Shown piece after piece: positions 41,603-48,173 of a stretch of DNA of 64,000 nt. Positions within the stretch are counted from its first letter, which is position 1, and every line of letters begins with the position of its first letter. The position numbers and the translations under genes were made by a program. The stretch lies in NCBI RefSeq assembly GCF_001412085.1, contig NZ_LKEV01000006.1, positions 124,001 to 188,000 of the forward strand, read 5' to 3'. Under the pieces are notes generated by a model. The model was not told the origin of the DNA. It did no database searches and saw only the letters and a list, made by a program, of their open reading frames with translations. The stretch comes from Corynebacterium lowii. GTDB taxonomy: Bacteria; Actinomycetota; Actinomycetes; Mycobacteriales; Mycobacteriaceae.

Positions 41603-42418
41603 TCACCTTTTTAGCTCATCGGCAAAGGAAGCAGCGGCTTTACGCAGCTTAGCTACCCCAGGCCCCGCGCTCAGTACCGCGCGGGAAACATTAGGATAAG
41701 CCAAGTCTGTTCGGTCGCCCATGATCTGTGCCACGTCGTTCGCACTACCGCCCTGCGCACCCACTCCGGGCAGCAAAACGGGGCCGTTGAGGAGGTGGCA
41801 ATCCGGGGCCTGCTCCACGGTTGCCCCCACCACCACGCCGAGGTTGCCGAGGCCCGAATGGGTGGCATTGCGGCGGGCCACCTCATCGACGATCTGCTGA
41901 GCGATGCTGCGCCCGTCGACGCCCCGGTGGCCCTGTAGCTCGCGGGCCTCCGGGTTAGAGGTGGCCGCGAGCACAAACACACCCCTGCCCTTTTCTTCCG
42001 CAAGAGCAAAGACGGGTTCTAGGGACCCCACGCCGAGATAGGGCGATACCGTCACAGCATCGCTGCATAGCGGGGAGGCGTCGTCAAGCCAGGCGGCGGC
42101 ATAACCGGCCATCGTGGAGCCAATATCGCCCCGCTTGGCATCGGCCACCACCAGCGCACCACCGGCGCGCAGGCCGGCGATGGTTTCTTCCAGCACGGCA
42201 AAGCCCGCCGAGCCAAAACGCTCATAGAAGGCCACCTGGGGCTTGACCAGCGAGGCCGTGGTGGCAAAGGCCTCCACGCAACGGCGGGAAAACTCCGCCA
42301 GGCCTGCAATATCATCTCCCAAGCCCCACGATTCTAAGAGGCTCGAATGAGGATCAATCCCCACGCAGAGATTTCCCCGCTCGGCGCTCAGGCGCGCTAA
42401 TTGCTCGCCAAAGGTCAC
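41603..42418 (-). CDS. pyrF: orotidine 5'-phosphate decarboxylase (type 2)
   Basis: Last step of UMP synthesis. The 271-residue length and [16 protein letters not shown] at the N-terminus mark the mycobacterial type 2 enzyme; the catalytic set is in [18 protein letters not shown], and [10 protein letters not shown]-like [12 protein letters not shown] near the C-terminus binds phosphate. GTG 42418 overlaps the carB stop (GTGA), so it is translationally coupled to carB. Confidence 0.96.
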
Positions 42419-45400
42419 TGATTCACCGCCTTAGCAGCCGTGGTGTGCTCTAGTTCTTGGAGGGCGCGCACGGCGAAGCCCTCGCCGCGCAGGGCCTCAA
42501 TGCCCTGCACCGCGGCGGTCACACCCTGGACGGTAGTCACCGCGGGAACACCCACGCTCACCGCCGAGGCACGAATGTCGTAGCCGTCGTGGCGAGCGCC
42601 CGAGGAGCCCGCGGGCGTGTTGAGGATGAGGTCTACTTCCCCAGCCCGAATCCGATCCAGGATGGATACCCCCTCGGCACCGGCGCGCACATCCGACCCC
42701 TTGAGCACCTCCTCGCACTCGATGCCATTGCGGCGCAGCATGCTGGCGGTACCGGCGGTGGCCAGGATCTTAAAGCCCAGGGAGGCCAGGCGTTGAATGG
42801 GGAAGATCAGGGTGCGCTTATCGTGGTTAGCCACGGAAACGAACACCGTGCCTTCGGTAGGCAGGCCGCCAAAGGCGGCGGACTCGGCCTTGGCGTAGGC
42901 GGCACCGAAGTTGGTAGCCACGCCCATCACCTCGCCGGTGGACTTCATCTCCGGACTCAGCAGGGTATCGAGCATGGTGCCGTCGGGGCGTCGGAAGCGG
43001 TTGAAGGGCAGCACCGCCTCCTTAACGGCGATGGGGGCATCCATCGGCAGCGAACCGCCGTCATAAGTGGTAGGAATCATGCCCTCGGCGCGCAGTTCCT
43101 CCAGGGTGGCCCCCATCATGATCCGGGAGGCGGCCTTGGCCAAGTGCACGCCGGTGGCCTTGGAAACGAAGGGCACCGTGCGCGAGGCGCGCGGATTGGC
43201 CTCGATGACGTAGAGAACATCGTCCTTGAGCGCGTACTGCACGTTCATCAGGCCCTTGACGCCGATGCCGCGGGCCAGGGCCGCCGTGGAGCGGCGCACG
43301 TTCTCAATATCCTCCGGCCCCAGGGTCATGGGCGGCAGCGCGCAGGCGGAATCACCGGAGTGAATACCGGCCTCCTCGATGTGCTCCATCACGCCGGCCA
43401 GGTACACCTCCTCTCCATCGGAGAGGGCGTCCACGTCAATCTCGATGGCATTATCCAGGAAGCGATCCACCAGCACCGGGTGATCGGCGGTGAGCTCCGT
43501 GGCCCGCTCGATATACCCCTGCAAGGAGGCCTCGTCGTAGACGATCTCCATGCCGCGCCCGCCCAGCACGTAGGAGGGGCGCACCAGCACCGGATAGCCA
43601 ATGCCGGCGGCCACGTCCCGGGCCTCGCTAAACGACGTCGCGGTGCCGAAGGCCGGGGCAGGCAACTGCGCGCGGCGCAGCACCTCACCGAACTCGCCGC
43701 GATCCTCGGCCAGGTTGATGGACTCCGGCGTGGTGCCCACCACCGGAACACCGGCGGCCTCCAGGCGCTCGGCCAGGCCCAGCGGGGTCTGGCCGCCCAA
43801 CTGCACGATGACCCCGGCCACGGTGCCGGATTGCGACTCCGCGTGATAGACCTCCATGACGTCCTCAAAGGTCAGCGGCTCGAAGTAGAGGCGATCGGCG
43901 GTGTCGTAGTCGGTGGAGACGGTCTCCGGGTTGCAATTGACCATTACCGTCTCATAGCCCACCCGGGAAAGCTCCAGGGCCGCGTGCACGCAGGAGTAAT
44001 CGAACTCGATGCCCTGGCCGATGCGGTTCGGCCCCGAGCCTAGGATGATGACCTTTTCCTTCTCCCGCTGCTCGCGCACCTCGGACTCGGCGGCCGGGTC
44101 CAGCTCATAGGCGGAGTAGTGATACGGGGTGCGGGCCTCGAACTCGGCGGCGCAGGTATCCACCGTCTTGAATACCGGGCGGATTCCCAGCGACCAGCGC
44201 AGGCGGCGCACGCCCTCTTCCCCGGCGAACTCGGGGCGCAGCACGGCGATCTGGGCGTCGGAAAGGCCAAACACCTTGGCCCGGCGCAGCAGGTCCTCGG
44301 TGAGCACCTGGGCCTCCATAAGCTCGGTGCGGAAGGCCACCAGTTGCTCCAACTCCGCCAGGAACCAGGGGTCAATGCCGGAGGCCTCGTAGACCTCCTC
44401 CACGCTGGCACCCCAACGCAGGGCCAACTCGGCGTCGTACATGCGGCCCTCGGTGGGGCGCTTGAGGTCCTCCAAGACCTCCGCCACAGAACCGAACTCG
44501 GGATCGGGGGCCGTCCAGAAACCGGCCTGCTTCTGCTCCAGGGAGCGCATGACCTTGTTCAGGCCCGCAATGTAGTTGCGCCCAATACCCATCGCCTCAC
44601 CCACGGACTTCATGGTGGTGGTCAGGGTGTCATCGGAGCCCACGAACTTCTCAAAGGCAAAGCGCGGGGCCTTGACGATCACGTAATCCAGGGTGGGCTC
44701 GAAGGCCGCGGGGGTCACCCCCGTGATGTCATTGGTGATCTCATCGAGGGTATAGCCGATAGCCAGCTTGGCCGCGATCTTGGCGATCGGGAAACCCGTG
44801 GCCTTGGAGGCCAGGGCCGAGGAGCGCGAAACGCGCGGGTTCATCTCGATAGTGATGAGGCGGCCATCGCGCGGGTTGAGGGCAAACTGAATATTGCAGC
44901 CGCCGGTATCCACGCCCACCTCGCGGATGATGGCAATGCCTTGATCGCGCATCTTCTGATACTCGCGGTCGGTGAGCGTCATAGCCGGGGCCACCGTCAC
45001 GGAATCGCCGGTGTGCACGCCCAGGGCGTCCACGTTCTCGATGGAGGCGATCACCACCACGTTATCGTCCCCATCGCGCATGAGCTCCAGCTCATATTCC
45101 TTCCAGCCAAGAATGGACTCCTCGATGAGCACATTGGCCTCTGGGGAGGCGGCCAGGCCGCCTCCAGCGATGCGTTCCAGATCGGCCTCATCATAGGCCA
45201 GGCCGGAACCCAGGCCACCCATCGTGAAGCTGGGACGCACCACCACCGGCAGGCCCAGCTCGGCCACCGTCTCGTGCACCTCCTCCATGCTGTGACACAC
45301 GCGGGAACGCGCGGACTCGCCGCCGATGGAAGCCACGATGTCCTTGAACTTCTGGCGATCCTCACCGCGCTCAATGGCCTCAATATCCGCGCCGATGAGT

Positions 45401-45756
45401 TCCACACCGTACTTATCCAGGATTCCCTGGCGGTCGAGCTGAATCGCGGCGTTGAGCGCCGTTTGACCACCGAGAGTCGCCAGCACCGCGTCGATGGGGT
45501 GGCCCTGAGCGGCCTCCTTGGCAAAGATCTTGTCGATGTACTCCGGGGTGATGGGCTCCACGTAGGTGTGATCGGCAAACTCCGGATCCGTCATAATCGT
45601 GGCCGGATTGGAGTTGATGAGGGTAACCCGCAGGCCCTCCTCCTTGAGCACGCGGCAGGCCTGGGTGCCTGAGTAATCGAACTCGCAGGCCTGTCCAATC
45701 ACAATGGGGCCGGAGCCGATAACCAGGACGTGATTAATGTCGTTGCGCTTGGGCAT
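42415..45756 (-). CDS. carB: carbamoyl-phosphate synthase large chain
   Basis: Makes carbamoyl phosphate for arginine and pyrimidines. The 1113-residue protein has two ATP-grasp halves ([17 protein letters not shown] near residue 14 and [17 protein letters not shown] near residue 570) and a C-terminal MGS-like allosteric domain with [16 protein letters not shown]. It lies between carA and pyrF in the expected order. The antisense strand is also open for long stretches, which reflects high GC only. Confidence 0.98.
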
Positions 45757-45788: not shown

Positions 45789-46979
45789 TTACTTGTGGGC
45801 GTCCATGAGATCAATGAACTGGTCAAAGAGCGGGTTCGCATCGCGGGGGCCAGCGGCGGCCTCCGGGTGATACTGCACCGAATAAGCCAGGCCGCTTTCC
45901 AGGGCCACGCCCTCCACCACGTCATCGTTGAGGCACACGTGGGTCACCTTGGCCGGGCCGAAGTCCGTATCAAAGCTCTCCCCCGCCTTGCCCTTGAGGG
46001 CAAAGCCGTGGTTTTGGGAGGTGATGTCGATTTTCCCCGTGGTCACGTTCAGCACCGGCACGTTGATACCCCGGTGACCAAACTTCATCTTGTAGGTCTC
46101 CATGCCCAGGGCACGGCCCAGAATCTGGTTACCAAAGCAGATACCAAAGAAAGGAATCTTGCGTCCCAGCACCTCGCGCACCACGGCCACCATGTCATCG
46201 GCCGTGGCGGGGTCGCCCGGGCCATTGGACACGAATACGCCGTCCGGGTTGTACTGCTCAATATCCGCCCAGGTGGAGGTGGAGGGCACCACCACGGTGC
46301 GCACCCCGCGGGCGGCGAAATTACGCGGGGTATTGGTCTTAATGCCCATGTCAAAGGCCACCACCGTGTAGCGGTGCTCCCCCTCCGGCTCCACCACGTA
46401 GGGCTCGGTGGTGCTCACCTGGGCGGAAAGATCGGCCCCAGCCATCGAATCCTGGGCGGCCACAATTTGCACTAGCTCCTCCACCGGACGCGCGGCCTCC
46501 TCTCCGGAGAAAATGCCCGCGGCCACAGAGCCTTGGTCGCGCAGGTGACGCACCAGGGTGCGGGTATCCACGCCGCGGATACCCACCACGCCCTGCTTCT
46601 TCATCTCTTCGTCCAGGCTGCGCTTGGCGCGCCAGTTGGATACCCGCGCAGAGAGGTCACGGATCACCAGCCCGGCCACCCAGATGCCGTTATCGCGGGA
46701 CTCATCGTCCTCATCGTTCCAGCCGGTATTGCCGATCTGCGGGGCCGTGGCCACCACGATCTGACGATGATAGGAAGGATCGGTCATCGTCTCCTGATAG
46801 CCGGTCATGCCGGTGGTGAATACGGCCTCACCCAGGGTGGAACCCACCGCACCCAGGCTGTGTCCGTGGAAGGAGCGACCGTCGGCAAGCACCAAAACGG
46901 CGGGAATCGGGGGCGTAGACGTCACTGTATCGACCTTTCGGTTAGGCGTGCTGGGCTGCTTGAATGTGGGATTATTCAT
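45789..46979 (-). CDS. carA: carbamoyl-phosphate synthase small chain
   Basis: Glutamine amidotransferase subunit that feeds ammonia to CarB. The N-terminal domain begins [18 protein letters not shown]; the class I amidotransferase part has [15 protein letters not shown] with the catalytic cysteine and [10 protein letters not shown] with the histidine. Two starts are plausible. ATG 46979 overlaps the stop of a 38-codon ORF as ATGA and gives 396 residues; GTG 46925 has GAAAGG eight bases upstream and gives 378 residues that begin eight residues before the conserved part. The usual pyrC neighbour upstream is missing. Confidence 0.95.
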
Positions 46980-47092
46980 CTGCCTTGTCCCCCATATGCT
47001 AACCCTCCCCCGTGATATACCGCTGCTACCTGGCAGCCGGTGTCCTGGTGCGCGACGCGCGCGACGACACTGCGTGTGATCGCCTCACTCAT
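46976..47092 (-). CDS. 38-codon ORF upstream of carA (leader peptide or pyrR deletion scar)
   Basis: ATG 47092 lies five bases behind a perfect AAAGGAGGT and the frame ends by ATGA overlap with the upstream carA start, so it is very likely translated. The peptide begins MSEAITRSVVARVAHQ; the run R-V-A-H-Q with an arginine five residues before resembles the first conserved helix of PyrR (RTIxRIAHQ), with one residue extra. The rest ([11 protein letters not shown]) looks like no domain and uses the rare codons TTA and AGA. In corynebacteria I know, pyrR, pyrB and pyrC stand here. A scar of a pyrR-pyrC deletion or a regulatory leader are the two readings. Confidence 0.6.
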   Translation of the reverse strand: MSEAITRSVVARVAHQDTGCQVAAVYHGGGLAYGGQGR

Positions 47093-47138
47093 CGTGACCT
47101 CCTTTCCCGCCTCTCTGTGCGGCCCTTAAAGGATGTCC

Positions 47139-47166
47139 ATTGATTAACCGTGACTCTCAAATCAAT
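47139..47166. repeat. inverted repeat in the carA leader
   Basis: ATTGATT (47139-47145) and AATCAAT (47160-47166) form a 7-base inverted repeat with 14 bases between, overlapped by CTCAA/TTGAG (47156-47170). It lies between the candidate carA-operon -10 and the 38-codon ORF. It could be an operator or an RNA stem; no regulator is recognised. Confidence 0.35.
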
Positions 47167-47180
47167 TGAGGATCGCAGCA

Positions 47181-47186
47181 AGCATA
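47181..47186 (-). promoter_or_regulatory. candidate extended -10 of the car-pyrF operon
   Basis: TATGCT on the minus strand preceded by TGC forms an extended -10 (TGCTATGCT). Transcription would start near 47174 and leave about 80 bases before the 38-codon ORF. No strong -35 is seen, which fits an extended -10. Confidence 0.4.
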
Positions 47187-47246
47187 GCACCGCCACTTAG
47201 CTACAGTGGTGTAAAGACCGCTCTTTCAGACAAACCAAGGAGATGC

Positions 47247-47738
47247 GTGACTACCCCCGAACACGACACCCCCGCCTCGGCCGTCACCGAGCAATCCGTG
47301 GTGGACATTCTTGAGGCCGAAAACCTCGATTACCGGCTCCACGAGGACCCCGCCCCCATGGTGCGCACGGGCTTTTATAACGCCGCCATATCCTTTGCCA
47401 TCGAGGGGGATTATCTGCTGTGCGATTCCATGTGGCGCGGCCAGGTAGATAGTCAGCGCGCCGCCACGGCCCTCACGGCCGTCAATGAGTGGAACCTCAC
47501 GCAGCTGACCCCCACCCTGCGCTTCTTCGAGTCCGCCCCCGGCCAGCTCACCTTTTCTGCTTGCCGACGCCTCCACATCGCCCAGGGACTCAGCCGCAAC
47601 CAAACCGGGGCCTTTGTGATGTCCACCCTGGACGCCATCGTGGCCTGCTACCAATGGATCGAGGCGCAGTTCCCCGAGGCGATCACCTGGGAGGACCCCC
47701 ACGCTGCTGACTCCCACGCTGCCGAGGAGGAGAAGTAA
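47247..47738 (+). CDS. YbjN domain-containing protein, first of tandem pair
   Basis: 163-residue soluble protein with the alpha/beta pattern of the YbjN / type III chaperone-like family: VDILEAENLDYRL, FYNAAISFAIEGDYLLCDS, ATALTAVNEWNLTQLTPT and a C-terminal helix MSTLDAIVACYQWIEAQFPE. GTG 47247 follows AAGGAG by four bases. The next gene begins directly after the stop (TAAATG) and is a likely paralogue, so the two may form a heteromer. Function is unknown; YbjN proteins have been linked to stress responses. It is transcribed away from carA. Confidence 0.75.
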   Translation: MTTPEHDTPASAVTEQSVVDILEAENLDYRLHEDPAPMVRTGFYNAAISFAIEGDYLLCDSMWRGQVDSQRAATALTAVNEWNLTQLTPTLRFFESAPGQLTFSACRRLHIAQGLSRNQTGAFVMSTLDAIVACYQWIEAQFPEAITWEDPHAADSHAAEEEK

Positions 47739-48173
47739 ATGAGCGAGAACCTCATCACCACGCTGACCTTTGAGCGCGTGACCCAGGCCATGAAGAGCTT
47801 TAACATCACGCTCTGGCCCACCGAGGACCCCAACGTGGCCACCGCCAACCTCAACGGCTTCCGCGTGACCTTTGCCCTGCTGAACTCCGTGCTCATCGTG
47901 CGCGCGGATAAGCCCACCGACCTCGCCTCCGATTCCGGCATTCCCACCCTGCACCTGGCGGCCAATCAGGTGAATTGCTCCGGCTTTGGGGTCAAGGCCG
48001 TGGTGTCTGACCGCGAGGAAAACCTGGTGGTGCGCACCGAGTGCGATCTTCCTATCGCGGCGGGTATCTCCGATGAACAACTACGCCCCGCACTAGGCGG
48101 GGCTGTTGACGAGGTGCTCGCGGGCCAAGATCGCGTGGCCCGCGCGGCGGAAGAGCTTATTGAGCAGTCTTAG
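47739..48173 (+). CDS. YbjN-like protein, second of tandem pair
   Basis: 144-residue soluble protein with the same general layout as its upstream neighbour: [37 protein letters not shown], and a C-terminal helix that here contains [19 protein letters not shown]. It starts immediately after the first gene and ends by a four-base convergent overlap with nusB (TAG/TAA at 48170-48173). No catalytic motif is visible. Function unknown. Confidence 0.7.

Follow-up and report, generated by a model that had tools for sequence, protein, structure and literature searches.

In Corynebacterium lowii, the carA leader and the 38-codon open reading frame (ORF) that follows it are probably a remnant of the native pyrR gene, left at the ancestral site of the pyrimidine (pyr) operon and kept as a working, PyrR-responsive element of translational control. 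The window analysed here is a stretch of 64,000 nucleotides (contig NZ_LKEV01000006.1, positions 124,001 to 188,000 of the forward strand), to which all coordinates refer; features lie on the minus strand unless stated otherwise. The RNA element itself is well supported, and we infer both its use by PyrR and the coupling of the short ORF, hereafter the minicistron, to carA. A preliminary description of this DNA had proposed that a deletion spared the operon promoter, together with the ribosome site and start codon of pyrR, and joined them to carA, leaving the minicistron as its scar. Synteny, a leader matching that of pyrR and pyrR codons within the ORF all speak for such a deletion, the promoter being the putative part; as to the scar, a pyrR remnant does lie at the ancestral site, but it is not a mere scar, for it includes a conserved PyrR-type RNA element.

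The carA leader carries the hairpin of pyrR leaders

The minicistron (46976-47092, ATG at 47092), which we read as the remnant of the pyrR 5' end, has the features first ascribed to it: a perfect ribosome-binding site, AAAGGAGG at 47105-47098, the codons TTA and AGA, and a TGA that overlaps an ATG at 46979 (ATGA) opening the carA frame. Upstream of it, the leader carries the same hairpin as the pyrR leaders of the whole genus and of Mycobacterium, Nocardia and Gordonia. This hairpin, P1 (47096-47138), is predicted to be of the PyrR-binding type from its match to a covariance model, R1, and from the RF00515 alignment, and exposes a CAGAGA hexaloop at 47117-47112. In its lower stem CATCCTTT pairs with AAAGGAGG, so that the ribosome site is itself the 3' strand of the stem. 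Set against the pyrR leader of the same genome, the carA leader is closely similar from CATCCTTTAA up to and including the start codon, and again at the codons for RIAHQ.

R1 was built from an alignment, A4, of 87 distinct leaders among 192 pattern-matched ones from Corynebacterium, Mycobacterium, Nocardia and Gordonia; its structure was drawn up manually on the pattern of the RF00515 alignment. Both A4 and R1 deliberately omit the pyrR leaders and the carA leaders of the clade in which the operon is split. Against this model the window leader scores 64.2 bits (E-value 3.6e-14), as do those of C. oculi (G064), C. mastitidis and a further clade genome, G063, and the carA leader of Corynebacterium sp. 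zg-331 scores 63.0 bits. Elements of single-copy genomes score 48.6-72 bits, and the window leader therefore reaches the level of true pyrR leaders. The similarity to pyrR 5' ends on which the deletion hypothesis leaned is thus present both in the R1 score and in the genome's own pyrR leader.

Among 118 of the 121 pyrR leaders of the genus sample (the three of this clade being set aside), the hexaloop follows the pattern CNGNGA in 114; one of the other four reads TCGTGA, and in three the pattern landed on neighbouring letters. In the 87 aligned leaders 92.6% of cells are paired, versus 41-66% when partners are slid. Five stem pairs show a change on both sides, a number reached by 0/500 shuffles.

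The surroundings point the same way. The genes efp and nusB and two YbjN-family genes precede carA in the window, and in three other loci (L159, L161 and L167) they stand before pyrR or what is left of it; on this retained gene order the carA locus appears to be the ancestral pyr site. Together, the ancestral synteny and the pyrR-derived leader and codons identify a deletion derivative of pyrR. None of the five carA-side copies, that of the window included, precedes an intact pyrR, and the stub ORF recurs in C. mastitidis DSM 44356 (G173), Corynebacterium sp. zg-331 (G205) and C. oculi.

A predicted start-codon hairpin and a drifting peptide

The resemblance of the minicistron residues R-V-A-H-Q to the first helix of PyrR, noted in the preliminary description, holds at the level of codons, which match those of RIAHQ in pyrR. 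The block CGC-GTC-GCG-CAC (47048-47059) is the counterpart of pyrR CGC-ATC-GCG-CAC. In 27 pyrR loci with a full gene, all from outside the clade, we took the 102 codon columns in which 26 or all 27 genes agree on the amino acid, methionine and tryptophan excluded. Only four use a single codon in 100% of genes, and these are CGC-ATC-GCG-CAC; the next column reaches 0.93 and the mean is 0.56. The sequence CGAUG at the pyrR start codon pairs with CAUCG of this frozen block, with all five pairs in 114 of the 118 leaders. In the window the corresponding arm CGATG (47090-47094) pairs with 47057-47053, and fold prediction recovers this second hairpin, P2, in each of the five carA leaders. In the carA stubs 10 of the 12 columns of the block are invariant though the surrounding codons have changed, and a stub in a genome outside the clade, G181, retains CATCGCG, which its predicted fold pairs with the start codon. 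The frozen block and CGATG would thus make up a start-codon hairpin with a presumed role in initiation. To our knowledge no codon-frozen start-codon hairpin within pyrR has been described, although no literature search was aimed at it.

Conservation in the five species is concentrated in the RNA. The block from GGACATCC to ATG is invariant in 47/48 columns, versus 122/240 in the four other leader and minicistron segments together (binomial 3.7e-13, columns treated as independent). The synonymous divergence (dS) of CarA among them amounts to 0.38-0.74, which implies frequent change at positions free of constraint. Across the first 29 minicistron codons the ratio of nonsynonymous to synonymous change (dN/dS) is 0.69-2.54 in the ten pairs of species; for carA it is 0.05-0.11. 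A near-invariant block beside a peptide with dN/dS of about 1 indicates that the RNA, not the peptide, is retained. The stop/start overlap is kept as well: four species have ATGA, and the fifth, whose sequence differs, has TAATG. The persistence of the overlap despite drift favours a cistron that may be translated for no content of its own and feeds carA. A visual match had hinted that the tail of the ORF derives from pyrC, an origin that we do not claim: it failed to beat shuffles in 19/20 comparisons with pyrC ends, and the single value below 0.05 of shuffles (0.035) is what chance would give.

These data bear on two other readings of the locus. Firstly, the preliminary description had offered as its alternative a leader peptide that arose de novo, which would control carA through ribosome stalling or attenuation. 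Such a peptide would be encoded by just this kind of short ORF, preceded by a strong ribosome site and overlapping a carA start. However, an attenuator peptide would show a conserved peptide or regulatory codons, at odds with the dN/dS values above; the leader descends from pyrR; and terminator-like sites between 46700 and 47400 number a single match, at 47239-47258, upstream, with none between the ORF and carA. We therefore regard this explanation as extremely unlikely. Secondly, the conserved stretch could serve carA only as a promoter and a strong site of translation initiation, independent of PyrR. The perfect ribosome site and start codon would suit it, and PyrR binding is predicted only; yet the loop and the 5' stem, unneeded for initiation alone, are also conserved, and genus-wide the loop varies as CNGNGA, in agreement with CaGaGA, the loop in the alignment of RF00515. 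This makes initiation alone a highly improbable account, and a PyrR-responsive element the better one.

Downstream, the operon continues with carA (45789-46979; TIGR01368, 465 bits), carB (42415-45756; NF003671, 1590 bits) and pyrF (41603-42418; TIGR02127, 278 bits), named after their NCBIfam equivalogs. A second possible carA start consists of a GAAAGG site and a GTG at 46925 (46923-46939) and is common to outgroups. In four outgroup loci (L006-L008 and L025) a TAnnnT-like motif, seen by eye, lies about 7-8 nucleotides (nt) before an ATG in the carA frame and suggests an internal, possibly leaderless, carA promoter there. On the other side of the element, the hexamer TATGCT (47181-47186), conserved in the five-species alignment, resembles a -10 box and is the putative promoter; a consensus scan found no sigma-70-like site. 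The two adjacent YbjN-family genes (47166-48173, plus strand; PF10722, 28.3 and 31.4 bits) run antiparallel to the pyr operon, and such a pair recurs in 13 of 16 loci examined, being unmatched in L292, L166 and L171.

Relocated pyrimidine genes and recurrent orphan elements

That carA lacks its pyrR-pyrB-pyrC neighbours was correctly seen: between carA and the YbjN genes there is no ORF of PyrC size, and the PyrR and PyrB matches of this genome fall on another contig only, here C5. The three genes have not been lost, as a deletion alone might have implied, since a genome search finds all of them on C5, next to arginine-deiminase genes. There, on one strand and following NCBIfam naming, arcD, arcA, arcB, arcC and argR are followed by pyrR-pyrB-pyrC. 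PyrR scores 293 bits against NF003547 (cut-off 230), the arginine deiminase 544.5 bits against NF002381 (cut-off 414), the carbamate kinase 361.5 bits against TIGR00746 (cut-off 358.25) and the arginine repressor 131.1 bits against TIGR01529 (cut-off 130.45); the antiporter falls just below its equivalog (589.6 vs 591). The relocated pyrRBC set carries its own copy of the PyrR element.

This arrangement is exceptional in the genus. In 121 genomes we detected CarA in 115 and PyrR in 120. Both were found in 114, and in 111 of these a distance of 2.5-3.8 kb separates pyrR from carA; the exceptions are this genome, G063 and G064. An absence of CarA from the other six genomes was not upheld, since CarB is found in 6/6; CarA may have escaped detection through divergence, a frameshift or the strictness of the cut-off. 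Nor is there a general linkage of arginine deiminase with pyrR: 17 of the 121 genomes have ArcA, and only in the three of this clade does it lie within 4 kb of pyrR.

In a wider set the element occurs in 241 of 242 genus genomes, 12 of which have two copies. In eight of these (five members of this clade, G181, G228, which is a C. tapiri contig, and G232) one copy lies upstream of carA without an intact pyrR. From their sequences, such orphan elements seem to have arisen in about four lineages, with different deletion ends. In G181 the element precedes a 45-codon ORF that includes the start-codon block and overlaps a GTG in the pyrC frame (GTGA). In C. tapiri it precedes a pyrR that breaks off at about codon 88 and continues as pyrC from residue 256 onward, with carA next. 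In G232 the element lies 337 nt before the carA GTG, with no pyrR-like ORF. Three further two-copy genomes, G096, G141 and G156, have a second, near-full-length pyrR. The last, G095 (C. senegalense contig, L272, 4528-4841), has an extra element and, after it, a pyrR truncated at about codon 89; this copy lies away from carA, and no arc-gene match was found in the surrounding 8 kb.

In all eleven two-copy genomes other than G095 an arcB-like gene lies near the relocated or second pyrR. It is accompanied by arcA in six (this genome, G063, G064, G181, G228 and G232); arcB alone was found near pyrR in C. mastitidis, zg-331, G096 and G156, and arcB with arcC in G141. No ArcA was found in G096, G141 or G156 at E<=1e-40. 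The second cluster of G141 (contig C8, L296) reads pyrR-pyrB-pyrC-arcB-arcC on one strand and has its own PyrR element, the native pyrR locus being kept. The native locus of G096 reads pyrR-pyrC-carA without pyrB (L159, L273), and in both G096 and G156 (L297) pyrB stands with a diverged second pyrR adjoining the arcB-like gene.

Outside the genus, a family-wide sample of 121 genomes, eight of them Corynebacterium, has the element in 119 genomes and in 31/31 genera. Besides this genome, two copies occur in three. In G247 and G276 the second element is followed by a 41-codon ORF that resembles, by eye, the start of CarB and ends in TGATG on carB, carA and carB being separated; the two genes lie about 13 kb apart in G247 (L302) and 4.8 kb apart in G276 (L304), both of genus g7. 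In G252 the second element lies 8 nt before an ATG of carA in an operon that is otherwise intact.

The leader and the pyrR start could still be a functionless scar of the deletion whose promoter, leader and start remnants have yet to decay. A scar would show the free drift seen in the ORF, where invariant columns in the five species make up 56% of the middle part and 51% of the tail and dN/dS is about 1, as given above; G232 would be its eroded version. Three observations argue against it: the near-invariance of the 48-column block at the carA dS measured, the retention of the element in orphan copies of several lineages whose deletion ends differ, and the extra copies before carA and carB outside the genus too. 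We consider a mere scar very unlikely.

The retained-element interpretation nevertheless has points against it. In the P1 stem only 6 cells carry both-side changes, and shuffles reach the covariation score in 101/500 cases, the number of further pair types in 176/500 and the number of cells changed on both sides in 16/500; these statistics are weak because most pairs never vary. RF00515 aligns to the window leader at 20.8 bits (E-value 1), short of its gathering score of 54, at which it matches neither the window nor the genome's own pyrR locus (L002). The fold of the window leader taken alone is ordinary (z -0.99, versus -2.24 for the genome's pyrR leader), and this thermodynamic score is by itself unconvincing. 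As to P2, 4 of the 118 pyrR leaders miss one of the five start-codon pairs, one of which, L103, regains five by its letters in a register shifted by two, and the 10/12 conservation of the block in the carA stubs is weak alone (p 0.022). The carA GTG, which lies 54 nt past the overlapping ATG, has its own ribosome site and is shared by many of the outgroup loci compared; the main carA start may therefore not be the ATG at 46979, and coupling of the minicistron to carA may be partial. Finally, G232, with no pyrR-like minicistron, indicates that not every orphan keeps the full arrangement.

The origin of the relocated set was approached with trees of hand-chosen loci from quick searches, with one row per distinct sequence (47 for PyrB, 45 for CarA, 47 for PyrR and 48 for PyrC). 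The second PyrR of G096 and of G156 fell below the length cut, and the CarA tree is without G141 and G156. By the Shimodaira-Hasegawa-like approximate likelihood-ratio test (SH-aLRT), the PyrB tree groups all relocated copies with G172 (support 91), and the PyrC tree does likewise (81) except for a very long G181 branch. In the PyrR tree G232, G181, G141 and G172 group (87), with this clade and C. tapiri apart, and the CarA tree, in which inner support is weak, leaves these hosts ungrouped. By the p-value of the approximately unbiased test (p-AU), the second PyrB of G141 is clearly not a duplicate sister to the native one (7e-61). Placing this clade's PyrB with G094 and G003, which are among its CarA neighbours, is rejected (p-AU 0.005), the group having been chosen after the trees were inspected; placing it with G119, G062 and G041 is not (p-AU 0.185). 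We conclude that horizontal transfer of pyrRBC is likely for some genomes and possible for this clade.

For C. lowii itself, the set at the arginine-deiminase locus may instead be the native one, moved and not replaced from outside, with the same element left at carA. The placement with G119, G062 and G041 and the separation of this clade from other relocated copies in the PyrR tree agree with a move, which the PyrB and PyrC groupings with G172, the rejected placement with G094 and G003, and the G141 result oppose; such a move is a real possibility, to which we give a little under half of our belief.

The genome G172 itself has pyrRBC, with an arginine deiminase about 18 kb away (L298, C1:1916000-1926000). 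Neither CarA (E<=1e-60) nor CarB (E<=1e-100) nor a PyrR element was found in it, and it is a candidate for making its pyrimidines from arginine-derived carbamoyl phosphate.

A model of control and its parallels

In the model that we favour, when uridine monophosphate (UMP) is plentiful, PyrR encoded at the other locus would bind the P1 hairpin and mask both the ribosome site and the start codon that the minicistron uses. Because the minicistron stop overlaps a carA start, the block would pass on to carA and lower translation of carA-carB-pyrF. P2, formed between the start codon and former pyrR codons, probably contributes to a low level of initiation. Historically, a pyrRBC set would have arrived at, or moved to, the arginine-deiminase locus, possibly by horizontal transfer, and the 3' part of the native pyrR, pyrB and pyrC would have been deleted afterwards. 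Carbamoyl-phosphate synthesis would in this way stay under pyrimidine control once pyrRBC adjoined the arginine-deiminase operon.

The closest parallel is the pyr operon of Mycobacterium smegmatis. There, as Fields and Switzer are said to have found in 2007, PyrR together with uracil blocks access to the first ribosome-binding site and thereby represses translation, and the first cistron is reportedly an intact pyrR. Common to both is a hairpin with a PyrR loop at the first ribosome-binding site of a pyr operon; in the window the ribosome site likewise lies in the hairpin, the genome encodes PyrR, and no terminator separates the leader from the first gene. The difference is that here the element drives a pyrR stub before carA, while PyrR has to come from a different locus. 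The hairpin pattern occurs in 74 of 77 loci (L165-L241), seven from Corynebacterium and the rest mostly from Mycobacterium and Nocardia. With the Bacillus-type attenuators of RF00515 the window element shares a lower stem of UCCUUU/AAAGGA, an internal bulge and the CAGAGA loop, but it has no antiterminator or terminator and, as said, scores far below the gathering threshold. Bacillus and its relatives have several PyrR sites per genome. The likeness is that more than one site answers to one PyrR; here, unlike there, the second site was made by deletion and retains a coding remnant of pyrR. The study of Fields and Switzer (2007, J Bacteriol 189:6236) is cited in passages of PMC12369341 and PMC13328217. 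In a literature search of titles and abstract openings, and of passages of these two papers, PMC3766115 and PMC13260591, we recognised no description of an orphan PyrR element or pyrR stub before carA. Carbamoyl phosphate is also a product of the arginine-deiminase pathway, and ArcE and ArcB of Thermococcus make carbamoyl phosphate that feeds pyrimidines, according to passages of PMC13260591.

More broadly, and tentatively, with belief and doubt near balance and doubt slightly ahead, we propose that breaks in the mycobacterial and corynebacterial pyr operon have repeatedly been repaired with a second PyrR element, often together with a short, throw-away cistron overlapping the next gene (a pyrR stub before carA or pyrC, a carB-like stub before carB). 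In Corynebacterium this would have gone along with a horizontally spreading pyrR-pyrB(-pyrC) module with arginine-catabolic genes, and one PyrR control would cover both the carbamoyl phosphate derived from arginine and that made by CarAB.

If our interpretation is true, a regulatory RNA has outlived its gene: a leader, a start codon and a few codons answer the same regulator, now encoded elsewhere. Since several lineages reached a similar outcome with different deletion ends, they offer a natural experiment on the parts that a PyrR switch needs, of which the start-codon hairpin with its frozen codons is a testable one. The link with arginine-catabolic genes suggests, in addition, a route from arginine to pyrimidines in corynebacteria of this group.

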